NCBI GenBank assembly: GCA_028723455.1 | Contig: JAQYEW010000027.1 | Coordinates: 1-64,000, forward strand | Length of the DNA: 64,000 nt | Direction: 5' to 3' | Source: Prevotellaceae bacterium | GTDB taxonomy: Bacteria; Bacteroidota; Bacteroidia; Bacteroidales; Bacteroidaceae | Shown: piece by piece, positions 15,886 through 64,000 of the stretch | How positions within the stretch are numbered: the first letter of the stretch is position 1 | How the letters are laid out: each line of letters opens with the position of its first letter | Position numbers and translations under genes: made by a program | The notes under the pieces: generated by a model | The model's input: only the letters and a program-made list of their open reading frames with translations | Told to the model about the DNA's origin: nothing | Databases searched by the model: none

Positions 15886-15904
15886 CTGCCGGACTGTTTG
15901 GAAA

Positions 15905-19019: not shown

Positions 19020-19039
19020 AAAATGTCGAAAGTGTTTTG

Positions 19040-19047
19040 TACTTTTG
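19040..19047 (+). promoter_or_regulatory. -7 box of a likely dnaB promoter
   Basis: TACTTTTG, 38 bp before the dnaB start codon. No good TTG at -33; that position coincides with the -33 of the divergent promoter. Confidence 0.4.
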
Positions 19048-19085
19048 TACTCCATATTCTCTGTAATCCGTACATTATATAAATT

Positions 19086-36285: not shown

Positions 36286-36314
36286 GTTTTGTTAGTAAAT
36301 GATTTTAGAAATTA

Positions 36315-41700: not shown

Positions 41701-41829
41701 GTCATAGACGGAAACGGATTTGAAATCGTTGGTGTCGAAGGTGATGGTTTGTGCGCAAACCGTGCTCCAAAGCATGCTTTGCACACTTAATAAGGCAACG
41801 GCCTGAAGGTATCTGTGTGTTTTTTTCAT
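38758..41829 (-). CDS. Secreted GH16 beta-glucanase with GEVED-type domain and T9SS-type sorting motif
   Basis: 1023 aa with signal peptide. Residues 25-215 form a beta-sandwich of unknown type, followed by a GEVED-like domain around 215-400 (AYVDWNQDGKFSF), further beta domains (a second YIDYNRDGHFS repeat), then the GH16 catalytic domain from about 745. The active site GEIDIWE is at 853-859 (nucleophile Glu854, Asp856, acid/base Glu859). The end, PIYDLCGRPT...KGLYVQNGRKFIVK, fits a T9SS sorting motif. GH16 enzymes cleave beta-1,3/1,4-glucans or marine galactans; laminarinase-like is most likely. It follows GH29 by 36 bp. Confidence 0.88.
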   Translation of the reverse strand: MKKTHRYLQAVALLSVQSMLWSTVCAQTITFDTNDFKSVSVYDGWSDSPLRDGRISPAVQVIDNHLTAADPETGLQPNTTAKIVGFQRSRYGSNLAGLRVDLKETFRLTKEPRYVHVMINRPVSDSRMMLITLGKRSERAGQSAEVEQTWSLYKANTKANGWVDAVFEIKGFSYADPTKNGIDIHSLVICPDVADRSNLSEDFACYIDQIEITDSNTPRFATGNYTLSFEENHANSRTDRHLNSVSLSVGTNLYTLPTDAGRIYNNLISSQAPISVNAGQKITPSVNYTGTWMGAFAYVDWNQDGKFSFDVNTDGTPAANSEIVSYNGGNVNNTWRNSLGEDVGNGNRVANQLPAFTVPQTTKPGIYRMRFKVDWSTLDPAGNSTSNNLITANGGGIADVVLNVRSSETLVNASQLNGDIVVASTSQAVSNLTMHSNSPLRIRMMPAPGFTHNGIRITYGYHLSGDSLLNDNPQFFTATIPATAFVDNELTLPDEFMGYGEVRLEGLMVQENIVELDDHAVEHDRISTLELNGTGISLANRSYTLTDNSHSLQDFTQERMVGFTHGQELQPSIPGQLYIDYNRDGHFSQATERHTGVLPTHVEGIFRALWQTEQYQFLFLVNLHAPKTKVISDITHGRFISRLKYVNGQALTTKGVPVATDAYKFLGLIAQPLQSGYQINGKARVRYGHNLDGAQQSGGITQWFEEEMEIGSDSRLNIGYNNMFGTVRILAAFEPTEAATTQQVFADEFNGTSIDDSKWSVRQRGNATWARFISSDPNVTFVQDGSLVCQARKNVFDPTDKVPTLSGMRESAKSYALLHGYVEARVLTKPHVGNFPAFWMMPMDMTGGWPTCGEIDIWETIDERNSSWHTVHSNWTYNLKKNGQPRSTFEFACTQDGEWHTYGLLKEADKLTWYVDGEEVFSYAKSTNQSDLGQGQWPYDKAFHLILNQSVGRGEWAAHYDPDFVYETRFDWVRAYELSPLNDVEHVKAGFTAQPPIYDLCGRPTRGKTKGLYVQNGRKFIVK

Positions 41830-41865: not shown

Positions 41866-43383
41866 TTAGAAGACACTGATGTTGTTCATTAAGGGACAGG
41901 CACGGCTGTCAAGGATGGTTATCCGGAGGTATTGGGCGCTGTAGCCCGTGCTGTAACTTGCCGATGTGCTGCCGTTCAGGGGGATGATTCGCTTGTAGCC
42001 GACGGTGGTCTGTGCGATGTTGCCACCGCGTGGTGTCCAGTTTGTACCGTCCGTGCTGGTTTCAATGCGGAAAGCCTTGATGCGTTGCCCTAAGCGGATG
42101 GGCTCTTGGAGCATAACGTAGCGGAGCGTCTTTGGACTGTCCCAGCGCAGTGTGATCTGTGCTGACTTTTCGCCGTCAGGAGCAGCCCAATAGGTGTTCT
42201 TGTCCGCATCTGTGAGGTTGGACGCGGCGTATGTCTTTGTTGCGCCGTTGCTTCGTGTGGTGTTAGCCTCGATGGTGGCCTGTGTCGCCAGATTGCGATC
42301 ATCTCCCAATCTGTTGTTGAGCATGATACCCAGTTGCCTGAGTGTATTCGTTGTGGCAGTGGGCAGCATGCCACGCTTGTCGGGAGGGCAATTAAGAATG
42401 AGTGTGGCATTGCGCCCTACGGTTTCCAGATACATCTGGAACAAGCGCTCTGCGCTCATCACCGACTCTCCTTCGTGCCAGAACCAACCGGCATCAGTTG
42501 CTTTGGCATCGCTTTCGCCGGGTTCCCAGTACCAACCATTCTCCATTCCCGAATTCAGGGCGTTCCGGTCGTTGTCGTTGCTTGCATAATCAATCATGGA
42601 CCAGTTCGTTTCGCCGGCAAAGCCTGCTTCGTTGCCGATCCAGCGGGCCTCACCGCCCACGCCCCACATGACACAGTCGGGCAACACACGATGCACAGAG
42701 TCGCGCAAGTTGGGTATGTCATAGTAAATGCTGGCATCGATGCTGCGTGTGCCGCCGGCTCCACCATAGTAGCCGTCGCCACCATTGGCTCCGTCGAACC
42801 ACATCTCGAATTGGTCATTGCCATATTTTGTCAATTCGGCACACTGGCGTAGGAAGACATCTGTAACATAATTGTCCTGTCCGTAAAACGCCGAGTTGCG
42901 GTCCCAAGGAGAAACGTAAAAACCATATTTCATGCCAAGTTCTTTGGCTGCCTTGGCAAAGTCGCGGGGAATATTCGTCTCCCTGCCGAATCCGTTGCCA
43001 GACCGCGTAACATTGTGCGTGGTGGTTTCCGTGGGCCAGAGGCAGAATCCGTCATGATGTTTAACGACGGCAATGCCACCTTTCATGCCCGCTGCTTTCG
43101 CGGCCTCGAGCCATTGCCTTGGGTCGGGTGCCTGTGTGGGGGCGAAAAGGCTTTCCGGTTCGTCGCCATTGCCCCATTCCCTGCCCGTGTACGTGTTCAT
43201 GCCATAATGGAAGAAAGCATAAAATTCCGTCTCGTTCCACATGATTTGTCGCTCGTTGGGAACGGGATGCACAGGCAGTGGTTCATTCTCCGGGTTGCTT
43301 AGGTGTTGTGTGTTGAGGCTTAGTTGGCCAAAAGCAGCCAACGGTGCCAGACACAGCATCGAAAATAGGGTTTTTCTTTTCAT
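41866..43383 (-). CDS. GH29 alpha-L-fucosidase with C-terminal discoidin-like domain
   Basis: 505 aa with signal peptide ending AAFGQ. GH29 barrel motifs: YAFFHYGMNTYTGREWG, GIAVVKHHDGFCLWPT, and EMWFDGANG with nucleophile Asp197. The last 130 residues form an F5/8 type C (discoidin) domain (TYAASNLTDADKNTYWAAPDG), often used for sugar binding. It releases alpha-L-fucose from glycans, periplasmic or at the surface. It lacks the T9SS-type tail carried by the downstream GH16. First gene of the GH29-GH16 unit with a full promoter. Confidence 0.92.
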   Translation of the reverse strand: MKRKTLFSMLCLAPLAAFGQLSLNTQHLSNPENEPLPVHPVPNERQIMWNETEFYAFFHYGMNTYTGREWGNGDEPESLFAPTQAPDPRQWLEAAKAAGMKGGIAVVKHHDGFCLWPTETTTHNVTRSGNGFGRETNIPRDFAKAAKELGMKYGFYVSPWDRNSAFYGQDNYVTDVFLRQCAELTKYGNDQFEMWFDGANGGDGYYGGAGGTRSIDASIYYDIPNLRDSVHRVLPDCVMWGVGGEARWIGNEAGFAGETNWSMIDYASNDNDRNALNSGMENGWYWEPGESDAKATDAGWFWHEGESVMSAERLFQMYLETVGRNATLILNCPPDKRGMLPTATTNTLRQLGIMLNNRLGDDRNLATQATIEANTTRSNGATKTYAASNLTDADKNTYWAAPDGEKSAQITLRWDSPKTLRYVMLQEPIRLGQRIKAFRIETSTDGTNWTPRGGNIAQTTVGYKRIIPLNGSTSASYSTGYSAQYLRITILDSRACPLMNNISVF

Positions 43384-44202: not shown

Positions 44203-46689
44203 TTAGAATCTAATCGTGAGGTCTGCTCCTACGTGACGAGGCTCGTTGTATTGGGCGTATTGTCGTTTGGCACTGATAAAATAAAAGGTGTGGTAAGCAT
44301 TATTTGTCAGGTTTTTAGCCCAAAGGCTCAGCGTACCCCATTGGGTTTCCAACAGGAGTCGTGCGCCCAACTGCGCCTGAAAATTCTGGCGATGCAAGTT
44401 GTCTTCGGTCCAATAGAGTTTACCGTAACCGTTCGTGTTCACACCAAGAGAGAGGTTCCTTAGATACTTGTGTTGAAGGGGTAAGGTGTAGGTGGCTTCC
44501 GCAAATACGGTGTGCTGAGGCACGAAAGGAACATTGTTGCCATCATAGTTATTGCCGCTTCCGTCGTCATAACGTAAAAAGGTGGCACGTGTGAAGCCAT
44601 AATTGACAAGGAGGTTCCATCGGTCAGTTGGGCGATAGTGCATGCTCAGTTCGCCACCCCAACTTAAGCTCTTGCCTGCATTCACCATCATGCGGCCCAG
44701 TCCCGAGGGTGCAAAACGAGAAATCTGCTGGTCGTGGATAGTGCTTAGAAACAGAGACGCATCAAGCATGAATCGGTTGGTGGGGTTCAGATGCGCCCCC
44801 AATTCATAGTTCCATGAGTGTTCTGGCTTGTAGACCACCTGGTCCGTGGTTGGACGTCGGCTTTCGGGCATTCCGCGTTCCATCATCTGCTTGACATAAT
44901 CCTTGAAGGGAATCTCATCACCCGCTACCTTGGGATTGGGATCCCAAAGGGTCTGGGGAAAGGTGTTGTTGCCCTTGGCTCCTTCGGCGGCGATGTAATC
45001 AATGTAGTTCCCTAAGCCTGTTTTGATGCCGTTCATCATTTCCTTGCGCATGGCACCCTGTATGAGGTCGCTGAACATTTGGAGATTATAACCTCCGGAG
45101 CGCTGTCCCACGGCTATGCTGGCATAGACGTTGTTATTGGCGTCGAAGTCGTATTGCAGAGCCAACTTGGGTAGAAGATGGATGTAGTTGCGGCGTAGCG
45201 TCCCATTATACCGGATATCGCAGGTCATGTCCTGCAGGTCAACGGCCATGGCGGGATTGCTGCTGTTGGGCATGCTGAATCCATAAGCCACGTGGGCCGG
45301 GCTGTCGAAGCGCATGCGCTGATTCTCATAGTTCAATCGCAGGCCTGCCGTCAGTGTAAACGCATCGGCGGGCTTGTAGGTTATCTGATGAAAGAGGGCT
45401 GCGCTCAGCATGGGCGTGTGGTAGATGCCCTCCATGCGTAGATGGTCGCCCCGGAAATTCACCTGCATGCTTTCGAATCCCATGAGCCGCATCATGGTCA
45501 TGCGCTCGTTGGTTTGGATGTTGGGCATGTTGGTGTTGATGTTGCTCTCCAACCATCGAAGGCCATCCGTGTAGAATGTTACGGGACCATTGGTCCTCAT
45601 GGTTTGTCCCATCAAACTGGCGCCTGAAAGCCATTGCCACCGGCCGGTGCGCTGGCTGCGGAAAATAATCTCCTGGCTGGCGCTGTGCAGGCGTTGGCGC
45701 TGCATCAGGCTATAAATGTCCGCGCGAAGAAAATCTTGGTCTAAGAACATGCGGTCGCGCAGATGCTGATAGCCGGAAATTGCATTCATCTTCCATCCGC
45801 GGCCCTGGTACTCGATGTTGGCCCCTATGTTCAGGAGCGAGCGGCGATAGTTGCTCTCGCGGTTTTGGGAGATTTTCCCGATGAGTTGGGCATATTGTTC
45901 CTCGCTTCCCTCCTGGGCTCCCAGATAAAAATAAGGATAGGCTGCCTGACGGTTGTGGTCGTAGCTGACGGAGAAGTCCATCTTGAGATTGCTGGTGGGC
46001 AAGAGGATGCCACGCATACGTCCGCCTGCGCTGTGTGTGCGGTCTACGCTGCGTCCTGTGGTTGTGTTTTCCCAAAAGCCGGAGGTTCCTTCAGCGTATG
46101 CACCCGCGCTGAAGGCAAAGGACTTGCTGATGCGATGGTAGTGCGTAAGGCTGACGGTCCTGCGGAGGTTACCGGAATTGAAGGACAGATGGGCGTCCGT
46201 TCCCTGATAGCGGAAAGGGTTTTTGGTGTGTACCTTGATAATGCCTCCCATGGCGTTGCGACCATAGAGGGTGGCTTGCGGACCGCGTAAGACATCCACA
46301 CGTTCTATGTCATAGAAATTGAAATCAAACGAGGACTTGTCGGCGTAGGGTACGTTGTCTACGTACATGGCCACGGCAGGAGTGCCCGAACGTGAACCTA
46401 CGCCTCGGACATAAATTGAGCTTGTAAGGCGCGAGCCATAGTTGGGGATGAAGAGATTGGGAACCAGTGTGCTTACGTCCTTTAACGTCTTTATCTGATG
46501 ATTGCGTAGCTGGCTGATGGAGGAGGAACTGACGGGCTGGGCCTGCAGTTGCCCCGACTCCTTAGGCGAACTGACGATTTCTACCATTTCCAATTCAGCA
46601 GGAGCCAGACTGTCGGCTACTTCTGCTATGGGCATGGAAAAGCATAGGGTCGGAAAAAGGCTCAAGGCCATTATCAGTCGTTTGCACAT
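44203..46689 (-). CDS. TonB-dependent outer-membrane receptor (non-SusC type)
   Basis: 828 aa with signal peptide. The plug begins at about residue 45 with LKDVSTLVPNLFI and contains SSIYVRGVGSRSGTPAVAMY and RVDVLRGPQATLYGRNAMGG, the classical plug signature. A 22-strand barrel follows to the end (ADLTIRF). There is no CarboxypepD-like N-terminal extension and no SusD partner, so it belongs with iron-complex/siderophore/vitamin receptors rather than glycan importers. Operon partner is a secreted calycin-like protein. Ligand unknown. Confidence 0.92.
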   Translation of the reverse strand: MCKRLIMALSLFPTLCFSMPIAEVADSLAPAELEMVEIVSSPKESGQLQAQPVSSSSISQLRNHQIKTLKDVSTLVPNLFIPNYGSRLTSSIYVRGVGSRSGTPAVAMYVDNVPYADKSSFDFNFYDIERVDVLRGPQATLYGRNAMGGIIKVHTKNPFRYQGTDAHLSFNSGNLRRTVSLTHYHRISKSFAFSAGAYAEGTSGFWENTTTGRSVDRTHSAGGRMRGILLPTSNLKMDFSVSYDHNRQAAYPYFYLGAQEGSEEQYAQLIGKISQNRESNYRRSLLNIGANIEYQGRGWKMNAISGYQHLRDRMFLDQDFLRADIYSLMQRQRLHSASQEIIFRSQRTGRWQWLSGASLMGQTMRTNGPVTFYTDGLRWLESNINTNMPNIQTNERMTMMRLMGFESMQVNFRGDHLRMEGIYHTPMLSAALFHQITYKPADAFTLTAGLRLNYENQRMRFDSPAHVAYGFSMPNSSNPAMAVDLQDMTCDIRYNGTLRRNYIHLLPKLALQYDFDANNNVYASIAVGQRSGGYNLQMFSDLIQGAMRKEMMNGIKTGLGNYIDYIAAEGAKGNNTFPQTLWDPNPKVAGDEIPFKDYVKQMMERGMPESRRPTTDQVVYKPEHSWNYELGAHLNPTNRFMLDASLFLSTIHDQQISRFAPSGLGRMMVNAGKSLSWGGELSMHYRPTDRWNLLVNYGFTRATFLRYDDGSGNNYDGNNVPFVPQHTVFAEATYTLPLQHKYLRNLSLGVNTNGYGKLYWTEDNLHRQNFQAQLGARLLLETQWGTLSLWAKNLTNNAYHTFYFISAKRQYAQYNEPRHVGADLTIRF

Positions 46690-50579: not shown

Positions 50580-51395
50580 ATGGCATATTTGTCAGACGAA
50601 AAGAAGAAAGTAACTTCACAGATGTTCATCGAAATGAAACATCGTGGAGAGAAGATAACCATGCTAACGGCCTATGACTACACGATGGCAAGCTTGTTGG
50701 ACCAAGCGGGTGTGGATGCCATACTGGTTGGCGACAGTGCCAGTAATGTAATGCAAGGCAACATGACCACGTTACCCATTACCGTTGATGAGATGATCGT
50801 CTATGGGCGCAGCGTTGCCAAGGCATGTAGCCACGCCTTGGTGATTTGCGACATGCCTTTCGGATCCTATCAGGCAAGCCGAGAGGAGGGCGTGCGCAAC
50901 GCCATTCGCATTGTTAAGGAAACGGGTTGTGATGCTGTAAAGTTGGAGGGTGGTTCGGAAATAATAGAAACGGTACGTGGTATCATCCATGCTGGCATAC
51001 CCGTTTGCGGCCATTTGGGATTGACACCCCAAAGCGTGAATAAGTTCGGAGGTTATGGCTTACGCGCCAAGGAGGAAGCCGAGGCGCAAAAACTTTTGGA
51101 TGATGCTCTGATGTTACAGGCGGCAGGTTGCTTTGCTGTCGTTCTGGAGAAGATTCCCGCTGCCTTGAACAAAAAAGCATGCGAGATGCTGCACATTCCC
51201 GTTATCGGTATTGGTGCGGGTGCATCTGATGGCCAGGTGTTGGTGGGGCAGGACATGCTGGGAATGAATCAAGGCTTTGCCCCTAAGTTCCTCCGCCGCT
51301 ACGCTGATGTGGCCACGGTCATTCAGAATGCCGTCAAGCAGTATGTCCAAGATGTCAGAAACGCCGACTTCCCCAGTATAGAAGAAAGTTATTGA
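50580..51395 (+). CDS. panB: 3-methyl-2-oxobutanoate hydroxymethyltransferase
   Basis: 271 aa from [16 protein letters not shown]; the track start at 50535 overlaps the end of uup. TIM-barrel PanB with [30 protein letters not shown] (Mg-binding Asp), LEGGSE and [17 protein letters not shown]. It makes ketopantoate, the first committed step of pantothenate/CoA synthesis, from 2-ketoisovalerate and methylene-THF. Cotranscription with uup is likely from the small gap. Confidence 0.96.
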
Positions 51396-51425: not shown

Positions 51426-51456
51426 TTGTTGGAAAATAAAAAAAGATTTACATTTG
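51426..51456 (+). promoter_or_regulatory. Promoter of the fasciclin/SusCD locus
   Basis: TTG (51426-51428, in TTTG), 20-bp spacer, TACATTTG (51449-51456). Leader of about 72 nt before the first ATG, long compared with neighbouring genes and a possible site for post-transcriptional control. Confidence 0.7.
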
Positions 51457-51533
51457 CCATCACAGTGTGTTAAATACACTGAAACGCGATCGTTCTTACA
51501 AACAAAAATGCTGGTAGTAATACACGTATTATC

Positions 51534-54365
51534 ATGAGAAACAGTTTTATACAACGTCGTACGCGTCGTATTCTGTGTTATTCCTTTGCCATAGGCCTAA
51601 TGGGTTCTACGTTGGTGGGTTGCGAGGACGACCTGCTGACAGGAACGCCCTCGTGGTTGGGGGAGAGTATCATGGGTGAGCTGGAACGTAGAGGAAACTT
51701 TACGGAAACCATCAAGCTTATCCGTGCCCAGGATGAGGACTATGAGTCCGTCTTGAGTAAAACGGGAAGTAAAACCGTTTTTGTGGCTGACGATGCCGAG
51801 TGGGCAAACTTCTATCGCAACAATGCATGGGGAGTAAAGAGCCTGGATGCGCTGACGGAGTCGCAAAAGAAACTGCTCTTTAAAGGGAATATCATAGATA
51901 GTCCCTATTTGGTAGAGCAGTTAGGTAATATTCCAAGCACAGGAGCCGAGCTTCCTCCAGAGGGCACCTGTATGCGTAGGCGTAGTTCTGTTGATATCAT
52001 GGATAGCGTTCCATTGGTGTCTGCCGTTGAATTTCCGGTGATCAATCCTGTTCGTATCGAGAAGAACAGCGGTAAGCAGGTTGACCACTGGCAGCGTCTG
52101 CGTGGGAAGAGTCATGCTTATATCCTCAATAGCGACAACCCGGCTCCGATAATTCATTTCATGCCCAAGTTTATGCAGGTAAATAACATTTCGAGCAATG
52201 ATGTTGAATTCCTGACGAATGGACAGATTAAAAGCAATGGGGATGCCTTTATCAATGGCCGTGTCATAAAGGAAGCTGACATTACGGCTCAGAACGGCTA
52301 CATTCATGTAACGAATGGCGTGCCAGTTCCCTTGGAGAATCTGGCGACGATTATTTCCAACCATCCCGACTTTACGATTTTTAGCCGCTTGCTGAACCGT
52401 TTCAGCTATCCTCATTTTGACGAGGAGCTGAATACGGAGTTCCAACGTCAGCGTGCTACGGAAGACACGGTTTATGTAAGGCGTTATTTCAACGACCAGC
52501 AGGGTGGCTATGCGCTGTCGCAGTATGATGCAAATGACGGAGGCAACCGCGTAACCAATGTGCTGCCTTATGATCCGGCGCGTAACTTATATACATTGTA
52601 CAGCGGTGGTGGCAATATCACATGGCAACAGGACGCTGCCGTGATTCTTGTACCTACGGACAAGGCCATGATGGAGTACTTGAAGGGCGATGGTTCCGAC
52701 CTTCAGGAACGCTATGCCACGTCAGGTCCTGGGCAGACGGCCTGGGATAATGCTCCAGATGAGGTCGTTTTGCCTTTGCTGCGCAATGTTATGCTTACGA
52801 GTTTGAAGGCTGCCATTCCCAGCCAGTTTGGCAGTATCAACAATACGGCTGCGGAGCCGATGGGAGTGAAGAAAGCGGATATTGACAGCGTGCTGTGGGC
52901 TTGCAACGGTATTGTCTATAAAACAAATAAAGTATATGTTGCGCCGGAGTATTTGAGTGTATTCTATCCTGCCGTTGTCCGTGCCAACGAGGATTTGGGT
53001 CTCTTCTATACCGTTGTGTCTTATGACAATGGAGTTGCTGGTGGTGAAGGCTTCCAAGCCTATATGAACAGCATGGGCACGAAGTATAGTCTTATTATGC
53101 CCACGGACAAGGCCCTGCAGACTTACTACGACCCTGTTACCCGCAATCGGGGAACTGTGGCACGGCCCACTTCCGTTGCCTACAAGTTCCGTACGAACCT
53201 CTTGGGACGAATTGCCGCTGATGCTTATCTTGTTGATTGGGACAAGGTTGACGATATGGGACGCCCCGTGATCGCGAATGACATTTATACTACGAAGGTG
53301 CCTTCGTCCAGCCTTTCCCCTAACAGCGAGAATCAGAGCGATGATGCCTTCAACCATTTCAAGGATATCATCAACAGCTCCTTGGCAACCAGTATGTTCA
53401 CGCCAGGACGTAGGTTCTATCAAGCCCGTAACGGTGGTCCTGTTATTGTACAATGGAATGGAAACCGTGTGGAGGGCGTCGCAGGCAGCTTCCAGTACGA
53501 GCGTGGCTACTTTATTCCCGTAACCGAGACTTTTGACAAGAGCAACGAGGGTAATGGCTTTACCTATATTGTGGATCAGGAGCCCCTGATGAGCACCACG
53601 CTCAGCCCTTATGCCGCATTGAACGATACGGCCGCATACAAAGGCGTATTCCGTGAGTTTGCGGCTTTGTTGGACGCAACGCCTTACGTGATGAATAATG
53701 ACGGAGCGGGCCACCCGACAATGGATCGGGCCATCAACCTCTTGAATAACTATCATTACACGATTTATGTGCCAACGAACCAAAGTATCCGTGCGTTAAT
53801 CGATAGCCATCGTTTGCCCTCGGCCGATAATATCCTGCGCGTGAGGGAACTGCTTGCAGACAAGAGTATAGATCTTAGTCTGGAGGAGGATTCGTTGCTG
53901 AAGGCTGAATTGGAAAAGATGCAGACCGTTGTCAACAACTTCGTTACCTATCATATTCAGGATAACAGCGTTTTTGTAGAGGGCGCCAACTATTCCAATC
54001 AGGCCTTTGAAACCGCTTGCCTGGACCCGGAAACGGAGCGTTTCTCGAAACTTACTGTTAACTACAACTTGGGCGGACAGCTCACGGTAAGGGATAATCT
54101 GCAAAACGTTCGTACCGTAAGCAACACAACCAATAATATCTTGGCGCGTCAGTATTATTTCTGTGTGAACAAAACTGGTTCTGCGACTTTGCAGACAGCA
54201 ACGCAGTTCTATACATCGTCTTTTGCCGTGCTCCATCAGATTGACGCCCCCCTCTTCCCCAACAACCACTCGCTGTATAGCGCAGACGATTATAACAAGG
54301 TGGAGGAGATTATAGCAAAATACACCAACGCTTCAGGAAAATCCGTTAGACGTTATCGCAAATGA
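51534..54365 (+). CDS. Fasciclin (FAS1)-domain lipoprotein, first gene of the SusCD locus
   Basis: 943 aa with lipobox LVGC (Cys30). Repeated FAS1-like elements: KTVFVADDAEWANFY near 80-95, YSLIMPTDKALQTYY around 520-535 and YTIYVPTNQSIRALI around 742-756, each followed by an F1/F2-type HxxxD-poor segment such as VNNFVTYHIQDNSVFV. So probably three or more degenerate fasciclin repeats. FAS1 domains mediate adhesion or glycan contact. The last codons overlap the susC start by 4 bp, so translation is coupled. It likely serves as a surface glycan-binding partner of the SusCD pair; ligand unknown. Confidence 0.78.
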   Translation: MRNSFIQRRTRRILCYSFAIGLMGSTLVGCEDDLLTGTPSWLGESIMGELERRGNFTETIKLIRAQDEDYESVLSKTGSKTVFVADDAEWANFYRNNAWGVKSLDALTESQKKLLFKGNIIDSPYLVEQLGNIPSTGAELPPEGTCMRRRSSVDIMDSVPLVSAVEFPVINPVRIEKNSGKQVDHWQRLRGKSHAYILNSDNPAPIIHFMPKFMQVNNISSNDVEFLTNGQIKSNGDAFINGRVIKEADITAQNGYIHVTNGVPVPLENLATIISNHPDFTIFSRLLNRFSYPHFDEELNTEFQRQRATEDTVYVRRYFNDQQGGYALSQYDANDGGNRVTNVLPYDPARNLYTLYSGGGNITWQQDAAVILVPTDKAMMEYLKGDGSDLQERYATSGPGQTAWDNAPDEVVLPLLRNVMLTSLKAAIPSQFGSINNTAAEPMGVKKADIDSVLWACNGIVYKTNKVYVAPEYLSVFYPAVVRANEDLGLFYTVVSYDNGVAGGEGFQAYMNSMGTKYSLIMPTDKALQTYYDPVTRNRGTVARPTSVAYKFRTNLLGRIAADAYLVDWDKVDDMGRPVIANDIYTTKVPSSSLSPNSENQSDDAFNHFKDIINSSLATSMFTPGRRFYQARNGGPVIVQWNGNRVEGVAGSFQYERGYFIPVTETFDKSNEGNGFTYIVDQEPLMSTTLSPYAALNDTAAYKGVFREFAALLDATPYVMNNDGAGHPTMDRAINLLNNYHYTIYVPTNQSIRALIDSHRLPSADNILRVRELLADKSIDLSLEEDSLLKAELEKMQTVVNNFVTYHIQDNSVFVEGANYSNQAFETACLDPETERFSKLTVNYNLGGQLTVRDNLQNVRTVSNTTNNILARQYYFCVNKTGSATLQTATQFYTSSFAVLHQIDAPLFPNNHSLYSADDYNKVEEIIAKYTNASGKSVRRYRK

Positions 54366-57300
54366 AAACATTTAGATTTTTTCTCGTGCTGGCTCTCATG
54401 GCAGTTGCCGGCAGTGCTTTCGCTCAGATAAATCGCGTCAGCGGAAGTGTCTCTGATGAATATGGGGAATTGCCTGGCGTTCAGATACGCGAGGTGGATG
54501 CCAGCAACCGTACGGTGAATGCCACCGTTTCGGACGGAAACGGTAATTTTACCATGACCGTGAAGGATGCCCAGCGTAACAAACTTGTCATCACCTGCGT
54601 TGGTATGAAGCCTCATACCATCAAGCCGATTACCAAACAGGTGTATAAGATTCTTTTGCATCCTGATGTCAAGGAGATGCAGGTGCTTAATGTCGTTGCC
54701 AAGAAGATGGTAAAGACGAGTGGTCTGTCCATCCCTGAACGCGAAATCAGTTTCTCTCATCAGGGCTTGGATGCCAAGGAGTTCGAAGGATTAGGCATTA
54801 CCTCTGTGGATGAGGCTCTGCAGGGACGTATTGCCGGTTTGGACATCGTTTCCAACAGCGGCGATTTGGGCGCGGGAACGCAGATGCGCCTGCGTGGTGC
54901 CTCTACGGTTTCTACGCTTACCAGCAATGAGCCGCTGATTGTTGTGAACGGAGACATTGCAACGGATATCGACCAGACGAATTTCGATGTGGCTACGGCT
55001 ACGGAGGAGAAGTTTGCCGAGCTGCTGAAAGTGAATACCGAAGACATCTTGGACATTAAGGTCTTGAAGGATGCTTCGGCAACGGCAATTTGGGGTACCC
55101 GTGGTGCGAATGGTGTAATTGAGATTACAACCAAACGTGGTAAGCGTGGTCCGGCTCGTGTGTCCTATTCCGGAAAATTGACCGCCACCTATCAGCCTGC
55201 TGGTATCAAGATGCTGAATGGCGACCAATATACCATGCTCATGAAGGAGGCCTATTTCAATCCGCATTTGAGCGATACGGAGGGTGATATTCCCGAATTC
55301 AACTATAACTATGACGGTTTCTCGGAAGCTTACATGTACGATAACAATACGGATTGGGTGGACTTGGTAAGCCAGACAGGTTTGCGTCAGAACCACTATC
55401 TGAGTGTAACGGGTGGTGACGAGAAAACACTGTTCCGTCTCAGTGGCGGCTATGACCACGAAACCGGTACCATTATCAAACAGGTGCTCAACCGTTTCTC
55501 GACACGTATGGCTTTGGACTACTATGTAAGCGACCGTATAAAGATTATCTCTGATTTCTCGCTTACATACACTGACAACGACCGTAACTACGATGCCCTT
55601 TTGGCTCATGCCTACACCAAGATGCCTAATCTTTCGCCCTATTACGAGTACGAGAACGGGGTGCCAAGCAACGACTATTATTATATGTTGCAGAATGCTG
55701 CTGGCGGCACGAAGAAATTGGATGACCAAAAGGACAACCCTAACCTTTTGGCAAGCGCCAATCTGGCGAAGTTCACCCAGCGAACCTATAATCTGGCTCC
55801 CAGATTGGAGTTGGAGTACAAGCTTTTGGGTCTTGATGATTCAAAGCACCAGTTGAAGTATAACGGTATGGTTTTCATTAACGTCAGCAACCAATACGAC
55901 GATAAGGATTACCCCCAGGAACTGAAAACAATTAACCAATTGGATGCACACTCTTCGTACAGTTATAGTGCAAAGAGTTTGAGTTTTACCACTCGTCATA
56001 GCCTGAACTACGTTCCTAAGTTTAAGAATGAGGACCATTTCATGACAATGCTGGCACGCTTCGAGCTTACCAGCGGCAGCAATAGCAGCCAGAGTACGGA
56101 CGCCTCTCGTTTGCCAAGTGGTATCAGTTCGCCCTCTGCGGGTGGCCTCATCGGCGGAATGGGTTCCGGATTTGGCCAGTGGCGCAGTATGTCGTATTTG
56201 TACACGACCCACTATTCTTGGAAAGGCCGTTATATGATTGACGGAACCTTGCGTATGGATGGTACCACGAAGTTTGGCCCCAACCGCCGTTGGGTCTATT
56301 CTCCCGCACTTTCTGCCCGTTGGAATATCATTGACGAACCTTTCATGCAAGCAGTTCGCGAAAAAGCCAAGGTAAGTATGCTCTCGGTGCGTCCGGGATG
56401 GGGTAGGGTAAGCAACCAGCCCGGCCAGGACTATTTGTATATGAACAAGTACACGACAGGGCTGCGTTATCTGAACACGGTAAGTATGAATTCCAGTGGT
56501 TTGAAGTTGACAAACCTGGGTCCTGAGTACGTCTCCTCTTATAATTTAGGTTTCGACCTCGGTTTCTTTGATGACCGTATCCGTTTCGTATTGGATCTTT
56601 ATTCCCGTAAAACATCCGATATGCTGATGGCTAAAGCCGGTATTCCCGGCAGCACGGGTTATTCTTCGCTTGAGGTGAAGAATGTAGGTGGCATGAGGAA
56701 CACGGGTTGGGAGTTTAATATCAACGGCAACCGGCTTTTGAAGAAAGGCAAGTTCTCTTTGGATTTCTACGTGAACTTTGCCAATAACCGCAACGTCATT
56801 ACCTCTATGGATGCCAATATCCTGGAGAATCTGAATAATGATTTTTCTCAGAAGAACCGTGATGTACTGCAACGTGTGCAGATTGACAATCCCTTCGGCA
56901 GTATCTATGGTTTCCGTTCCAAGGGAGTCTATCAGTATGCTTATTCTACCGCAGAGCGTATTGCCAAGGAAGACGCTAAGAATGGTACGCACGTGCTTCA
57001 GGACAATATCGACCGTGGCATGACCTATCCCATCGCCCTGAATGCCGACGGTAAGGTGGTTTTGGACGAGAAGAGCCTGCCCAAGCAGATGGCTTTCTGC
57101 GTGAGTGAGAATAATCCGCAGGGGCTTGGCCGTTTTAACGGTGGTGATGCCATGTACGAGGACGTTAACAATGACGGACAAATCAACGAGTTGGACATCG
57201 TTTATCTGGGCAATTCCTTGCCTAAGCTGACGGGTGGTTTTGGCTTGACCCTCAACTATGGACGTTGGCGCTTAGGTGCTCAGTTCAATTACCGCATTGA

Positions 57301-57721
57301 TTATGATATCTATAATTTGGCTCGCTTGGATATGGAGAGCATGATTGGCAATAACAACCAAAGCCAGGCAGTGAACTATCGTTGGAGGAAGGAAGGCGAC
57401 GTTACGAGTATTCCGCGCGCATGGCACGGCAGTGCGGGCATCCCCAACTACAACACGCTGGTGAGCGACCGCTTTATTGAGGATGGCACTTTCCTGCGCC
57501 TCAATTATCTACAGCTGAGCTATAGTTTCGACAACAAACTGGTTAAAAAATGGCACATGAGCGGCTTGAAACTCTACGCCAGTGCCAACAACTTGTTCTG
57601 TCTGACGAAATACTCCGGTGTGGACCCGGAAATCAGCTACGGAGGATATGGTATCAGCACCGATGCTGCCAAAACGCCTCGCAGCCGTTCGTGGACATTT
57701 GGCCTTAATATCGAATTCTAA
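54362..57721 (+). CDS. SusC/RagA-family TonB-linked outer-membrane transporter
   Basis: 1119 aa. Signal peptide ending AFAQ, a CarboxypepD-like domain at about 25-100 (ELPGVQIREVDASN), an N-terminal connector, a TonB plug (QMRLRGASTVST; RGANGVIEITTKRGKRG), then the barrel ending GLNIEF. Length and motifs are those of SusC, which forms a lidded pair with the SusD protein encoded 21 bp downstream and imports glycan fragments or peptides through TonB energy. Substrate is not readable from sequence. Confidence 0.95.
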   Translation: MKTFRFFLVLALMAVAGSAFAQINRVSGSVSDEYGELPGVQIREVDASNRTVNATVSDGNGNFTMTVKDAQRNKLVITCVGMKPHTIKPITKQVYKILLHPDVKEMQVLNVVAKKMVKTSGLSIPEREISFSHQGLDAKEFEGLGITSVDEALQGRIAGLDIVSNSGDLGAGTQMRLRGASTVSTLTSNEPLIVVNGDIATDIDQTNFDVATATEEKFAELLKVNTEDILDIKVLKDASATAIWGTRGANGVIEITTKRGKRGPARVSYSGKLTATYQPAGIKMLNGDQYTMLMKEAYFNPHLSDTEGDIPEFNYNYDGFSEAYMYDNNTDWVDLVSQTGLRQNHYLSVTGGDEKTLFRLSGGYDHETGTIIKQVLNRFSTRMALDYYVSDRIKIISDFSLTYTDNDRNYDALLAHAYTKMPNLSPYYEYENGVPSNDYYYMLQNAAGGTKKLDDQKDNPNLLASANLAKFTQRTYNLAPRLELEYKLLGLDDSKHQLKYNGMVFINVSNQYDDKDYPQELKTINQLDAHSSYSYSAKSLSFTTRHSLNYVPKFKNEDHFMTMLARFELTSGSNSSQSTDASRLPSGISSPSAGGLIGGMGSGFGQWRSMSYLYTTHYSWKGRYMIDGTLRMDGTTKFGPNRRWVYSPALSARWNIIDEPFMQAVREKAKVSMLSVRPGWGRVSNQPGQDYLYMNKYTTGLRYLNTVSMNSSGLKLTNLGPEYVSSYNLGFDLGFFDDRIRFVLDLYSRKTSDMLMAKAGIPGSTGYSSLEVKNVGGMRNTGWEFNINGNRLLKKGKFSLDFYVNFANNRNVITSMDANILENLNNDFSQKNRDVLQRVQIDNPFGSIYGFRSKGVYQYAYSTAERIAKEDAKNGTHVLQDNIDRGMTYPIALNADGKVVLDEKSLPKQMAFCVSENNPQGLGRFNGGDAMYEDVNNDGQINELDIVYLGNSLPKLTGGFGLTLNYGRWRLGAQFNYRIDYDIYNLARLDMESMIGNNNQSQAVNYRWRKEGDVTSIPRAWHGSAGIPNYNTLVSDRFIEDGTFLRLNYLQLSYSFDNKLVKKWHMSGLKLYASANNLFCLTKYSGVDPEISYGGYGISTDAAKTPRSRSWTFGLNIEF

Positions 57722-57742
57722 TTCCTTAGGGACATAACAAAG

Positions 57743-59581
57743 ATGAAAATACTGTCAAACAAACTCCATAAGACGATGGCCTTAGTAGCCGTCAGTCTTT
57801 CGCTCTGCGGCTGTTCCGATTTCTTGAACATCGAGCCAAAGACCATTGTGTCTGAGGATAATTTCTGGAACGAGAAGCAGGACATAGACCAAATGGTAGC
57901 CGGTGCTTATGTAAGCATGCAGGGCCGTGGTTTCATTGAGCGTTGCCTGATGTGGGGCGAGACGCGTAGCGACAATATTGCCGAGGGCTTCAAGACTTCG
58001 GATAATGTCAATATCTACCGTGTTCTGCGCGAGAATCTGCTCTCTACGAATGTATATACCGATTGGAATTCTTTTTATAGCTTGATAAACCGTTGCAATA
58101 CGATTATCGAGCGTGCTCCTCAGGTGAGCGAGAAGGATCCCGTATATACGGAAAGCGACGTGCGTGCTACCATTGCCGAGATGAAGGCTTTGCGTTCGCT
58201 GAGCTATTTCTACCTTGTGCGTGCTTTTAAGGATGTGCCATATTACACCTATGCCGTTGAGAAGGACGACGAGGTACAGGATATTGCACCTTCAAATGGA
58301 GATTCCATTGTCTCGGCGCTGATTGCGGATTTGGAAGGCTGTGTAGGTGATGCCTTGAAGGCTTTCCCCGATGACAAGAGTCAGGAATATAACACCACGA
58401 AGAACCGTATCACTCAGAATGCCATCTATGCGCTTTTGGCTGACCTCTGCCTGTGGAACGGCGATTATGCCAAGACGGTGCAGTATGCCCAATACGTGAT
58501 CGACGCCAAGGTGAAGGAGTACCAGGAGGAATACAGCCATCGCAGTTCATTCTCTGCGGACAATGTTTCACTGTTCAAGCATGTCAATGATACATACAGC
58601 ACGGTAGGCTATCCTCTTTATCCCTGTTTCTCCGGCACGGGTTCTACGGCCGTCTATGGTTATGATTTCAACCGTATCTTTGGTGGCGACCAGAATAGCT
58701 TTGAAAGTATCTTCGAGTTGGCGTTCAATTATACCAAGGGAAGCACGGCTTATAGCGCCAATCCTGCCTTCGCCTATCTCTTTGGCAACTACTTTCTGGA
58801 AAAAACGAATGACGTGGAACCTAATGCCGGCCAGGGCATTTTGGGTGTGAATCCCGCTTTGCTGAGCGATATTTCGTCTAACAACGTAGGTAAGTTCTTC
58901 ACGCGTCGTGATGTGCGTTATTTTACAAACATCAATAACCCTGCGCTTTCAAAGGGACAGGGCGAGTACTCCATTGGCTATCCTCAAAAGTATGTTGCTT
59001 ATTCGCTTAGTGAGAATGATAACGTTACATCGCCCCTGGGCACCTTGTTCGCGGGTTCTTACCTCTTGGATGCGAATCGCAATTTCATTTTCTACAGGCT
59101 GACCGATGTCATGCTGATGCAGGCGGAGGCTTTGTGCGAACTGGGCAGTGTGGATGCGGAGGGTAATCCCGATGACAATTTGAAACACGCATTCTACCTT
59201 ACTTGGGCTGTGAATCGCCGGAGCATTATGGAGAGTTCGACAACCACGGAGGTCAGAACCTATGAGTTACAGCTGAAGAATGTAACATCCCAGGAGATGA
59301 TGAGGGAACTGGTGCTGAAGGAGCGCCGTCTGGAATTGATGTTCGAGGGGAAACGTTGGTTTGACCTCCTGCGTCAGTGTCATCGCCAGAAGAACACCGA
59401 TTATATCCGCTACCGGGTGAGTGCCAAGAGTACCTCGGGCAGTTCTTCCAATCTTTTCACAAACTACGAATCGCTCTTCTGGCCTTATAACAAGACCGAG
59501 GTTAAGAATAACAAACTCCTAAATCAGAAGCCTTATTATGGCGATGAGGGCGATGAGGGTAATTTCTCTACGACAAGATAA
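57743..59581 (+). CDS. RagB/SusD-family surface lipoprotein
   Basis: 612 aa. Lipobox LCGC (Cys24), N-terminal SusD segment (DFLNIEPKTIVSEDNFW), TPR-like helical scaffold (YFYLVRAFKDVPYYT is typical) and C-terminal KERRLELMFEGKRWFDLL, the RagB/SusD signature. It caps the SusC barrel and binds the ligand. It directly follows SusC and is followed by two fasciclin-type lipoproteins. Confidence 0.95.
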   Translation: MKILSNKLHKTMALVAVSLSLCGCSDFLNIEPKTIVSEDNFWNEKQDIDQMVAGAYVSMQGRGFIERCLMWGETRSDNIAEGFKTSDNVNIYRVLRENLLSTNVYTDWNSFYSLINRCNTIIERAPQVSEKDPVYTESDVRATIAEMKALRSLSYFYLVRAFKDVPYYTYAVEKDDEVQDIAPSNGDSIVSALIADLEGCVGDALKAFPDDKSQEYNTTKNRITQNAIYALLADLCLWNGDYAKTVQYAQYVIDAKVKEYQEEYSHRSSFSADNVSLFKHVNDTYSTVGYPLYPCFSGTGSTAVYGYDFNRIFGGDQNSFESIFELAFNYTKGSTAYSANPAFAYLFGNYFLEKTNDVEPNAGQGILGVNPALLSDISSNNVGKFFTRRDVRYFTNINNPALSKGQGEYSIGYPQKYVAYSLSENDNVTSPLGTLFAGSYLLDANRNFIFYRLTDVMLMQAEALCELGSVDAEGNPDDNLKHAFYLTWAVNRRSIMESSTTTEVRTYELQLKNVTSQEMMRELVLKERRLELMFEGKRWFDLLRQCHRQKNTDYIRYRVSAKSTSGSSSNLFTNYESLFWPYNKTEVKNNKLLNQKPYYGDEGDEGNFSTTR

Positions 59582-59598
59582 CGTTGATAGCATATACA

Positions 59599-61743
59599 AT
59601 GATGAAACTACATAGAAAACTGTTTTTAGCGCTTTCGCTGATGGCATGTGGCATGCTGGGCTTGTCCCTGAACGCTTGTTCTGACGATATTCCCGCAGAC
59701 AAGTACTATACCTTTACGGGGCAGATGATGAGCGATTACCTGAAGGAGAATGCACAGTACAGCGAGTTCGTGGCTATTGTGAACCGAGCCAGCGGCAGCC
59801 AAAGGGGCGTCAACCTCATGGATTTGATTTCCACCTACGGCCAGTTCACTTGTTTTGCTCCCGACAACGATGCGGTGGCTGCTTTTCTTAAGCAGGGCGG
59901 CTACGCCAGTGTCAGCGATATTCCCGCTGATGTCTGTGATACGATTGCCCGTACCCATTTGCTCAATGGCCGGGCATATAATACGCAGGACATGGTGGGC
60001 AGCAACTCGTTGAGCACCGTGAACATGAACGACCGCTACCTTCAGGTGCAGCAAGGTTATGTGTTTCAGGGAGAGGATGGACTTCCCGTCTACACCACGG
60101 ATACGCTTGCCATCGAGGGGAAGGAAGATATTCGTTCCACGTTCCGTTTGAACCGCAGCGGATACATCGCCTATAACGAGGCAAATGATTCTGTCGAGAA
60201 TGGCATCATCCACCATGTTACTGCCGTCCTTTCTTCTTCTAACCAGGTGGTCAGCGACTTGTTGGACGACAATCCGGGTGTGAAACTTTTCAATCAGGCG
60301 ATGCGTCTCACGGGTATATCTGCCTGGATGCGCGAGCGTGTAAAGGACGAGAGCTGGAATCCGGATGCCTATGAGCCTCGCAGCGTGTATTCCGGTGCGC
60401 AGTATGACTACTGTCATATCCCCGAAACCAAGAACTATGGTTTTACCGTTTTTGTCTGCCCGGACTCCGTATTGCAGAAACGGTATAAGATTACGGATAT
60501 GCAGTCGTTCTATGATTATGCAAGAGGCATTTACGGTGGAGAGCAACTCGACGTAAACGATGCCGCCAACGCCGGCAAACTGATGGAAAAATCAAGTCCC
60601 TTGCGCCGCCTGATCGCTTACAACATCCTGAACACAAAGGCCATGTACGACAATCTGGTTTGTCTGACCTCTATTGACAAGACCCTCATCAATCCTACGA
60701 CGTGGTACGGTACGTTGGACAGTTTGACGAGCATCAAGGTAGAGAAACTGACGATGACGCGTTATATCGACCGAACGGCCGGTGATGTTCAGAACGATAT
60801 TTACCTGAATCGTGGCGACATGAAGCGTGGTAGCACCACGCGTGGCATTCATGTGCTGAGCAAGATGGACGAGGATTATGAAATCGAAGGCGTGAATGGT
60901 GTGTACTATATTACCAACGGCCTGGTTGATTATGGCCAGAAGACGAAGGACGACGTCTTCAATACGCGTATGCGCGTGGATATGTATTATATGTTCCCCG
61001 AACTGATGACGAACAATATCCGGGACGGACGCACGCAGAACCGCATCGCCGACTCCAACAACCCCGACAAGACAGTTACCTCGCCCAACTATTGGTTCCC
61101 CAATGGCTATTTGGATAACGTCAAGGTGAACGAGGATGGTATTTTCTTGTTCCAAAGCCAGCATAACACGTATTGGAGCTACGAGGGCGACGAATTCAAT
61201 CTGGCCAGCGACGTTAATAGCTATGATATTGAGTTCAACCTGCCCAGTGTGCCCAGCGGCACTTATCAGATTCGTCTTGGATTCACCGCTATGGCCACGC
61301 GTGGCATCTGTCAGTTCTATCTGGATGGTGTGCCCCAGGGTGTCCCCTTTGATATGCGTAGCGACAATTTCATCACGCGCACCGGTTGGTTCCCCCTTAC
61401 GGGCAATCATGGCTATGATGCCGAGGAACTGGAGGCCGCAAAGAAGAATATGCACAACTTGGGATGGTATCACGGCCCGCGCAGCGCATACAACGTTATA
61501 GGCGAGGGGCATCCTGATGATTATTCCGACCGCAGCTATTTCTGTAATAGTGGGGATGGCGGGCATGCGATTGTACGTTACGTTTTGGGAACGGCCAATC
61601 TGGACGAGAATGTTCAGCACCGTGTGCGAATCAAGAGTGTATGGGCTGTTGGAACGGCACTCGTAATGCTTGATTACTTTGAACTTGTCCCCAAGAGCGT
61701 ATATGGCGTGGAGAGTGCGGGCAAGGCCGAAGACGACATGTAA
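59599..61743 (+). CDS. Fasciclin-domain lipoprotein with C-terminal CBM-like domain
   Basis: 714 aa from the ATG at 59599 (a second ATG follows directly); the track's start at 59584 is a TTG. Lipobox LNAC (Cys27). FAS1-like segments FTCFAPDNDAVAAFL and YGFTVFVCPDSVLQK mark at least two fasciclin repeats in residues 35-430. The C-terminal 200 residues (YDIEFNLPSVPSGTYQIRLGF, then ICQFYLDGVPQG) look like a jelly-roll carbohydrate-binding module. It may present glycan to SusD. It is 17 bp after susD. Confidence 0.78.
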   Translation: MMKLHRKLFLALSLMACGMLGLSLNACSDDIPADKYYTFTGQMMSDYLKENAQYSEFVAIVNRASGSQRGVNLMDLISTYGQFTCFAPDNDAVAAFLKQGGYASVSDIPADVCDTIARTHLLNGRAYNTQDMVGSNSLSTVNMNDRYLQVQQGYVFQGEDGLPVYTTDTLAIEGKEDIRSTFRLNRSGYIAYNEANDSVENGIIHHVTAVLSSSNQVVSDLLDDNPGVKLFNQAMRLTGISAWMRERVKDESWNPDAYEPRSVYSGAQYDYCHIPETKNYGFTVFVCPDSVLQKRYKITDMQSFYDYARGIYGGEQLDVNDAANAGKLMEKSSPLRRLIAYNILNTKAMYDNLVCLTSIDKTLINPTTWYGTLDSLTSIKVEKLTMTRYIDRTAGDVQNDIYLNRGDMKRGSTTRGIHVLSKMDEDYEIEGVNGVYYITNGLVDYGQKTKDDVFNTRMRVDMYYMFPELMTNNIRDGRTQNRIADSNNPDKTVTSPNYWFPNGYLDNVKVNEDGIFLFQSQHNTYWSYEGDEFNLASDVNSYDIEFNLPSVPSGTYQIRLGFTAMATRGICQFYLDGVPQGVPFDMRSDNFITRTGWFPLTGNHGYDAEELEAAKKNMHNLGWYHGPRSAYNVIGEGHPDDYSDRSYFCNSGDGGHAIVRYVLGTANLDENVQHRVRIKSVWAVGTALVMLDYFELVPKSVYGVESAGKAEDDM

Positions 61744-61781
61744 TTTCTAATCCTGTGAAAAAACGATAAGAGAAGTAAGAT

Positions 61782-63605
61782 ATGAAACTCAAAGCTTATA
61801 CCAGAATAGCATCCTTGGGCTTGTGCTTTGCCATGCCCGCTTTATGGATGTCATGTACGGACACTTGGGACGAGCATTACGGCCGGCAATCCGCTACGGC
61901 CTGGGCGAAGTCGAATTTGTTGGCGGGTATTGCCGATGACCCTTCGCTAAGTAATTTTGCCCGTGTCATTCAGTCTGTAGGTGCCAGTGATATGCTCCGT
62001 GCCGACCAACAGTACACGGTGTGGGCTCCCCAGGGTCTTACCAGCGCTCAGGCGGACAGTATTATCGCCGTCTATGAGCAGGACAAAGCCGAGGGACGCC
62101 AACTTAAGGACAATCGTGCGATGACGCAGTTCGTACAAAACCACATCAGTTTGTTTTCGCATCCCGTAAGCTCCCTCACGAACGACACCATCAAGATGTT
62201 GAACAGCAAATTTATGCACCTTGTAGGTTTGAGTGCCACCTCCGGCACCTTAAAGAGTGCGCCTTTTTCCGATGGTATAGCCACAGAGAACGGTATGCTT
62301 TACAAGATTGATGCGCCTTTACCCTTCGAGCCTAACGTGCGTGAATATCTGGAGCAGCATAGCGATATGGACAGCCTGGTGAATTTTATCAAGCGTTTCG
62401 ACGAATACGAGCTGGACGAGAAAGCTTCGGTGGCCGGTCCCATTGTGGATGGCAAGACCCAGTATCTGGATTCGGTAGTGTACCTTACGAACCGTCTGTT
62501 GGACAGCTATGGCTATATCCAGCGCGAGGACAGTTCCTATCTCTTGCTGGCTCCCACCAATGAATTATGGGCCAAGCAGTTGGATGACTATAAAAAGTAT
62601 TTTGTTTATACAGAAAATATCGCCGGACGCGATTCCTTGCAGGACATCATGGCCAAGTCCGGCATCATCTCGGGCAATTTCTTCAATACCAGCCTGCGGA
62701 ACAGCTACAATCGTGCTCCTATGGATTCGTTGTGCAATACCATGTATTCTCTGTTCCAAGGCAGCCTGCCCCGCACCAATGTCTATTACAAACCGATGGA
62801 AACCATTTTCGCCGGTTTGGACAGACAGCAGTGTAGCAATGGCGCAGTGTACGTCGATCCGAAGGGTGCAATTTCCCCTTATACAACCTTCATGAGTCGT
62901 AGTAGTTTGCTTGCATATTACAGTAGTAATTTCATCATCCCGACGGAAGTCAAGAACGGTGTGGAGAGTGAGACGCAGACCGTAATGCGCTTGGAATATG
63001 AGCTGTATGCCGACCCCACCATGACATCGCTGTTCCGCACTTATCCTTATCTGGATGTTGTGTCGAACAGCAGCAGCGCCCAGTCCGAAATGAATTTCCG
63101 TCTGCATGGGGTGCTTTCGGGTTGCTATTACAATATCTATATGGTTACGATTCCTGACCAGGAAACCTTCCTGCCCGGATGGTACCGTATCGGTTATCGT
63201 GTGGCCAATACCAATGGCGGCTTCCAAAACCCCAACAACCCCGCGCAGGAAAAAACGCTGCGTTATTACGAGAATCCCAATCCCGTTAGTCCGGACATTG
63301 CCAACTATGCTGACATGACGGGTAACAAAGCACAGTATTTTGTGAGTTCTGCGGAAAAGGTGGATACGATTCTGGTGCAGAGCGCCGTGCAGTTTCCCTA
63401 TGCCAGTTATGGCCAGGAGGAGCCTACCGTAAAACTGACGGTAAGCACCTACGGCCGTTCCAATCGTAAAGGGCGGTCCTATACCAGCCGTTTGCGCCTG
63501 AACAGCTTCATCCTTGTTCCTTTTGCTACGGAAGAAGAGGCTAAGGCCGCTGCCATGAATTTTGATGCGATCAATGACGACATATTGGCTAACAAGGAAA
63601 AGTAA
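61782..63605 (+). CDS. Fasciclin-type lipoprotein, second copy after SusD
   Basis: 607 aa. Lipobox WMSC (Cys25). FAS1-like elements YTVWAPQGLTSAQADSI with TQFVQNHISLFSHPV at about 85-125, and YLLLAPTNELWAKQLDDY at about 250; the C-terminal part (NIYMVTIPDQETFLPGWYRI) is an unassigned beta domain. Related in layout to the other fasciclin lipoproteins of the locus but divergent. It ends 6 bp before the next SusC-like gene, so it may belong to a second SusC/D-type module. Confidence 0.75.
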   Translation: MKLKAYTRIASLGLCFAMPALWMSCTDTWDEHYGRQSATAWAKSNLLAGIADDPSLSNFARVIQSVGASDMLRADQQYTVWAPQGLTSAQADSIIAVYEQDKAEGRQLKDNRAMTQFVQNHISLFSHPVSSLTNDTIKMLNSKFMHLVGLSATSGTLKSAPFSDGIATENGMLYKIDAPLPFEPNVREYLEQHSDMDSLVNFIKRFDEYELDEKASVAGPIVDGKTQYLDSVVYLTNRLLDSYGYIQREDSSYLLLAPTNELWAKQLDDYKKYFVYTENIAGRDSLQDIMAKSGIISGNFFNTSLRNSYNRAPMDSLCNTMYSLFQGSLPRTNVYYKPMETIFAGLDRQQCSNGAVYVDPKGAISPYTTFMSRSSLLAYYSSNFIIPTEVKNGVESETQTVMRLEYELYADPTMTSLFRTYPYLDVVSNSSSAQSEMNFRLHGVLSGCYYNIYMVTIPDQETFLPGWYRIGYRVANTNGGFQNPNNPAQEKTLRYYENPNPVSPDIANYADMTGNKAQYFVSSAEKVDTILVQSAVQFPYASYGQEEPTVKLTVSTYGRSNRKGRSYTSRLRLNSFILVPFATEEEAKAAAMNFDAINDDILANKEK

Positions 63606-63611
63606 TCGGTT

Positions 63612-64000
63612 ATGAAAAAGACAATCCTTTCTATATTCTCTCTTCTCGTAATCTGCCCTGTTAGCTTGTTCGCGCAGGAGGATGCGGATGCGGCACAGCA
63701 GATCGAACGCAAGGTACAGAAGAAACTGGATGTGCGCGAAGTAAAGGGTCGCGTGGTTTCTCAGTTGGCACATCAGCCCTTGGCCGGTGTCTTGGTTCAG
63801 GCAGTGGGCTATGACGGCTATTCAACGCTTACGGAGGAGGACGGAACCTTCAGTCTGAACGTGCCTGTTTTCTGTAACTCGCTGAGCGTTACGATCCCTG
63901 GTTACAACACCGTGCGTGTCAGTGTCGAGACGGCGGCGAACGGCAGAGACATAATCTTGCAGAGCGACAAGAGCTATGCTTTTTATACTGGTGGCGAGAA
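63612..64000 (+). CDS. SusC-like TonB-linked outer-membrane protein, N-terminus (cut by window end)
   Basis: Not in the ORF track because no stop is reached. The 129 visible codons begin MKKTILSIFSLLVICPVSLFAQ (signal peptide), then a CarboxypepD-regulatory-like domain (VKGRVVSQLAHQPLAGVLV, TEEDGTFSLNVP). This is the usual front of a SusC/RagA transporter, but plug and barrel are outside the window. Same strand and 6-bp gap to the fasciclin gene imply operon continuation. Confidence 0.75.
   Translation, partial: MKKTILSIFSLLVICPVSLFAQEDADAAQQIERKVQKKLDVREVKGRVVSQLAHQPLAGVLVQAVGYDGYSTLTEEDGTFSLNVPVFCNSLSVTIPGYNTVRVSVETAANGRDIILQSDKSYAFYTGGE

Follow-up and report, generated by a model that had tools for sequence, protein, structure and literature searches.

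A set of seven genes, encoding two SusC/SusD pairs and three lipoproteins with fasciclin-type (FAS1) domains, is a fixed unit spread over at least 15 families of Bacteroidota. It was encountered at the end of the window, i.e. the whole 64,000-bp stretch of DNA that was analysed (bases 1–64000 of the 69,083-bp contig C27 of a 2.5-Mb draft genome, G000). SusCD importers and FAS1 proteins are each of a known kind, the FAS1 domain being known chiefly for its part in adhesion in animals and plants; what is new is their combination, two SusCD pairs with three FAS1 lipoproteins, in one fixed set of seven genes.

In general terms, the module very probably imports a plant glycan. Stated in full, it is taken to be an outer-membrane uptake module for a plant cell-wall glycan, most likely RG-I-type pectin or its side chains, combining two SusCDs with FAS1 proteins that act in binding or as a scaffold, and to this reading we assign a probability of about 0.6. 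The observed basis is the gene content, the FAS1 fold, the fixed gene order, the co-divergence of the genes and the linkage to plant-glycan enzymes in relatives; we infer that pectin is the substrate in the query genus and that all parts join in one physical complex.

Organization of the operon

All seven genes lie on the forward strand in the order FAS1A-SusC1-SusD1-FAS1B-FAS1C-SusC2-SusD2, with intergenic distances of −4, 21, 17, 38, 6 and 37 bp, the maximum thus being 38 bp. FAS1A (51534..54365) encodes a 943-amino-acid lipoprotein built of a FAS1 array and shares an ATGA overlap with SusC1 (54362..57721), a SusC/RagA TonB-dependent transporter, which is followed by the SusD/RagB lipoprotein lid SusD1 (57743..59581). 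FAS1B (59599..61743) is a lipoprotein that combines FAS1 domains in its N-terminal part with a CBM-like β-sandwich at the C-terminus, and FAS1C (61782..63605) is a lipoprotein with an N-terminal FAS1 domain followed by a C-terminal region. FAS1B could start at a TTG at 59584 (719 residues) or at an ATG at 59599 (714 residues), the latter being preferred by the ortholog alignment. SusC2 occupies 63612..64000 of the window; the whole gene (63612–66833 of the contig) encodes 1073 amino acids with the Plug and CarbopepD_reg_2 domains. SusD2, a protein of 700 residues matching Pfam SusD_RagB, is encoded beyond the window, at contig positions 66871–68973.

The preliminary description of this DNA listed six genes, namely a FAS1 lipoprotein of 943 residues, SusC, SusD, a FAS1 and CBM-like lipoprotein, a further FAS1 lipoprotein and a SusC-like gene, all of which are present in that order and at those sizes. 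It had the locus begin at 51426; the locus is real, but its first gene begins at 51534. Both of its SusC-like genes were confirmed, while a second SusD had been overlooked, as had the fixed set of seven genes. The operon is counted as seven genes because the contig beyond the window adds the rest of SusC2 and a second SusD. The extension past 64000, proposed earlier as a way to find enzymes or regulators, therefore yielded the second SusD but neither an enzyme nor a regulator, as positions 64001–69083 comprise the remainder of SusC2, SusD2 and then the contig end. No glycan enzyme or regulator was found next to the operon up to position 69083, and the statement that the visible part lacks a glycosidase and an HTCS/ECF regulator still holds to that point.

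The FAS1 lipoproteins

All three lipoproteins score above the Pfam Fasciclin (PF02469) cut-off of 22 bits in the HMM search that had been suggested for them, with 36.7 bits for FAS1A (in two stretches), 30.4 for FAS1B and 27.9 for FAS1C. PDB searches with single FAS1 sequences gave nothing useful, so family profiles were needed; their best matches are TGFBIp for FAS1A (5.5e-25), periostin for FAS1B (1.4e-12) and TGFBIp for FAS1C (1.2e-8). The NCBIfam scan provided no name for these proteins. The presence of FAS1 in all three, claimed earlier, is thus supported by both Pfam and the TGFBIp/periostin profile matches, and for FAS1A and FAS1B also by the fold.

FAS1A and FAS1B were also modelled with AlphaFold (pLDDT of 80.0 and 81.8, respectively), and Foldseek recognized the FAS1 fold in both. 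The FAS1A model matches TGFBIp with an E-value of 2.2e-18 over 894 columns, nearly its whole length, and aligns with the four-FAS1 proteins TGFBIp and periostin over ~890 columns. The FAS1B model matches TGFBIp/periostin and, in addition, MiXBM, a xanthan-binding module, and CBM35. The label “CBM-like”, given in the preliminary description to the end of this protein, is fair because it is the C-terminal domain that matches MiXBM and CBM35. FAS1C is related to FAS1B (hhalign probability 93.8).

In the query, the residues after the lipobox cysteine read EDDLL (FAS1A), SDDIP and TDTWD. These acidic residues resemble the lipoprotein export signal (LES) of B. fragilis, SDDDD (PMC5080379), and suggest that the FAS1 lipoproteins may be surface-exposed. 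A lipobox regular expression run over the modules gave noisy output and is too crude as a test. The proposal that the FAS1 lipoproteins occupy the position of SusE/F or of surface glycan-binding proteins (SGBPs) is supported.

The SusC and SusD proteins

SusC1 belongs to TIGR04056 (657.5 bits). Its closest match in the PDB is 8aa4, a SusC homolog from the utilisome series (1.3e-86), while RagA is matched at 8.8e-39; RagA is therefore not the closest of the solved SusC proteins, as it would be for a RagAB-type peptide importer. SusD1 scores 79 bits with SusD_RagB and 54.5 bits with SusD-like_3, and SusD homologs in the PDB were also matched.

The tandem SusC/SusD pair that defines a polysaccharide utilization locus (PUL) occurs twice in the query operon. 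CAZymes, another mark of such loci, were not seen in the operon, on the contig to its end or beside the genus orthologs, and are present in related modules and in a second copy on contig C13 of the same genome. A linked HTCS or ECF/anti-sigma regulator was not seen at the query.

Distribution and conservation of the module

The identical seven-gene order agrees in 48 of the 53 module reads, which come from 15 families inside and outside Bacteroidales (39 complete with identical order, nine agreeing but cut by the fetched stretch); the remaining five are rearranged, one gene short or one gene longer. When the order and the phylum were searched with profiles, the unit turned up in 12 further Bacteroidales families and in two that are not Bacteroidales. 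Two tandem modules with an HTCS regulator between them are found on contig C7 of genome G168 (L130, L150–L151), where FAS1A is last in the first module and FAS1B last in the second.

The pairwise distances of all seven genes correlate across modules (r 0.86–0.97). For SusC1 and SusC2, r is 0.94 in a diverse set, a value reached by none of 2000 permutations. The correlation points to co-inheritance and would fit a joint function, although shared descent alone could give the same result.

The seven-gene tree places G171_C33 and G353_C34, two modules linked to the rhamnogalacturonan lyase PL11, as sister group of the query clade (support 1.000). The next clade out contains the xylan-linked modules, and pectin-linked ones make up much of the tree's other half; the labels “PL1-like” and “CE12” on this tree are guesses. 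The module on contig C445 of G118 (L147, L177) branches within the non-Bacteroidales f122 clade. G118 is a Bacteroidales draft of 800 contigs with 5% contamination; either a binning error or horizontal transfer may explain the placement.

In most genomes of the genus that were read, the orthologs sit downstream of panB (ketopantoate hydroxymethyltransferase; 50580..51395 on the forward strand in the query, identified from sequence alone), a syntenic neighbor that probably does not belong to the system. Most of these panB-type loci also show the ATGA overlap between FAS1A and SusC1, in line with the translational coupling proposed earlier; outside the genus the overlap does not occur.

The fixed place next to panB, where catabolic neighbors are absent, might also indicate a housekeeping role in the envelope, for example in a BAM-like or other outer-membrane assembly complex with SusCD-like parts, and surface lipoproteins are indeed found in the BAM of Bacteroidota (PMC12611786). 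Such a role is extremely improbable, since the module is missing from many genomes and from one whole clade of the genus, its relatives are located in catabolic loci, and the BAM complex described in that work has no reported FAS1 protein.

Enzymes encoded near related modules

The enzymes found beside related modules point mostly to pectin. The module of G361 is accompanied by GH105/88, two GH28, PL22, GH106, GH2 and GDSL and SASA esterases, that of G606_C13 by GH106, PL22, GH95, a GDSL esterase and GH88, and that of G089 by PL11, GH28, GH105/88, GH35, GH43 and SASA. The neighbors in G387 are RhaT, an aldolase/dehydrogenase protein resembling rhamnose catabolism, and GH2. PL11 is present in G353 and G171_C33 together with a GH_cc protein or GH43; GH106, GH29 and GH116 are found in G118, GH88 in G134, and GH78 and GH95 in G226. 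GH51 is located near the modules of G279 and G138, the former also having GH105. Two related modules, G171_C54 and G351_C32, are held by xylan loci: both have GH67, and the first also GH10, GH115 and GH43. Because of these two, the module by itself does not dictate the substrate. For three modules of family f124, the stretch read contained no recognized enzyme for plant glycans.

Within 25 kb of modules, PL11 was observed six times against 0.93 expected (P 0.0004) and GH88/105 seven times against 2.05 (P 0.005), an enrichment that weakens to P 0.015 and 0.019, respectively, when counted at the level of loci. PL1-like ORFs of G128 and G606 (“AFPGAEG..”), for which Pfam gave no confirmation, and a CE12-like gene in G504, guessed from the beginning of its sequence alone, were left out of the evidence. 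A long type of PL11, of ~1500 residues, recurs beside or apart from modules (L156:4305-8828, L158:4143-8663, L174:13516-18012, L212:9018-13619); three of the four carry PATR repeats according to Pfam, and one has a T9SS tail.

The preliminary description considered the import of a non-glycan. This could be a peptide or host protein, or the operon could be an adhesion system with FAS1 as the adhesin, given that FAS1 proteins elsewhere are adhesion proteins, that the query locus has no adjacent carbohydrate enzyme and that RagA is among the SusC homologs matched. Both are distinctly unlikely. Related modules of many other families adjoin GHs, PLs, CEs, rhamnose catabolism or an HTCS, the second module of the query genome has a GH43 and a GH_cc protein directly upstream, SusC1 is nearer to 8aa4 than to RagA, and FAS1B ends in a CBM-like domain.

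Enzymes in the query genome and its genus

After SusD2, no enzyme or regulator was recognized in any of the genus orthologs read, and the genes found there vary between genomes. As no enzyme adjoins the panB-linked module in the genus, the enzymes probably lie elsewhere, an arrangement raised earlier as a possibility and now favored: contig C14 of G000 encodes a homologous PL11 of 1534 residues, with a GH_cc protein beside it, which shares 47% identity with the PL11 linked to the module of G171 and 43% with that of G353.

The orphan position in the genus would also be expected of a relic, a PUL core stripped of its enzymes and no longer serving a defined substrate. That is very unlikely, since many diverged species have kept all seven reading frames intact, which implies selection.

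Uptake of a pectin by a functional module is in line with the distribution of PL11, which is encoded in 20 of 20 genus genomes with a panB-type module versus three of 17 without it (37 genomes, P 1e-7); on the PheT tree this co-occurrence is nearly one event (mostly one event plus G022) and is therefore supporting evidence, not independent proof. GH10 is found in 18 of the 20 and nine of the 17 genomes, respectively (P 0.023), and both co-occurrences are phylogenetically confounded.

The second copy comprises all seven genes in diverged form (~33% mean identity) and is located at ~56.7–75 kb of contig C13 (L061–L062), between the GH43 and GH_cc genes and, downstream, ileS, the latter identified by sequence only.

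The same machine might serve another plant glycan than RG-I, such as glucuronoxylan, arabinoxylan or arabinan. The xylan-locus modules with GH67 belong to the clade next to that of the query and its sisters, GH51/GH43 adjoin several other modules and GH43 the C13 module, and G000 itself encodes GH10. This is nonetheless unlikely, as the modules nearest to the query carry PL11 and the link of the panB-type module to GH10 is weaker than that to PL11, confounded as both are.

A solo FAS1B-like gene on contig C68 of G000 (~0.6–4.5 kb; L063, reversed 15497–19391) is divergent from a sulfatase-like gene. There is no SusCD in the stretch read, whose far side is near the contig end. A similar partial gene is found at the end of L071 (G045).

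Proposed mechanism

With RG-I-type pectin as the preferred substrate, the operon would provide two different SusCD “pedal-bin” transporters, TonB-dependent, and three surface FAS1 lipoproteins. FAS1A, with its periostin-like array, FAS1B, with FAS1 and CBM-like domains, and FAS1C would take over the work of SusE/F-type SGBPs, holding the polymer on the cell surface and perhaps bridging both transporters. The chain would be cut by lyases and hydrolases, secreted or on the surface, whose genes lie elsewhere in the genome, for example the PL11 on C14, and the fragments imported through SusC1D1 and SusC2D2, energized by TonB.

A bolder proposal, which we hold tentatively and at somewhat less than even odds, is that the four-FAS1 lipoprotein scaffold, the two different SusCDs and the CBM-bearing FAS1 proteins form one assembly that co-imports fragments of two kinds, both derived from a single branched acidic plant polysaccharide, and so represent a widespread and so far undescribed class of machine.

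Relation to known systems

Stable complexes of SusCD with SGBPs are known for the levan and dextran systems of B. theta (PMC7618045). These utilisomes and other Sus-like PULs share with the query a SusC, a SusD lid and extra surface lipoproteins in one operon, the latter in a presumed SGBP-like role. The query differs in having two non-identical SusCD pairs, FAS1 accessory lipoproteins and no local surface hydrolase or regulator. RG-I/pectin PULs of Bacteroidota resemble the related modules that have PL11, GH28, GH105, GH106, PL22 and esterases, whereas the query module has no enzymes beside it.

The FAS1 array is shared with TGFBIp, periostin and insect fasciclin I, and FAS1A matches four-domain animal proteins nearly end to end; however, it is a bacterial lipoprotein of only ~12–14% identity to them and is coupled to a TonB-dependent transporter. 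Prokaryotic FAS1 proteins are typically single-domain according to a review (PMC6032426). The C-terminal domain of FAS1B is similar to CBM35 and MiXBM in predicted fold, at only 11–14% identity.

No description of a seven-gene FAS1/double-SusCD module was found in the open-access literature searched. The module makes FAS1 a fixed part of what is probably a nutrient importer, in the same order over 15 families, and offers a testable unit for studying the use of branched plant glycans by Bacteroidota. It may account for “orphan” fasciclin lipoproteins of gut and rumen genomes, and can serve as an annotation marker for loci otherwise taken as two separate enzyme-less SusCD pairs.

Other genes in the window

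Genes for GH127, GH16 and GH29 are located on the reverse strand at 13486–15885, 38758–41829 and 41866–43383, ~8 to 38 kb from the module. The reverse strand also encodes, close to rho, a TonB-dependent receptor that has no SusD partner (44203–46689), and two adjacent large secreted proteins resembling M6-type metallopeptidases (33922–38144).
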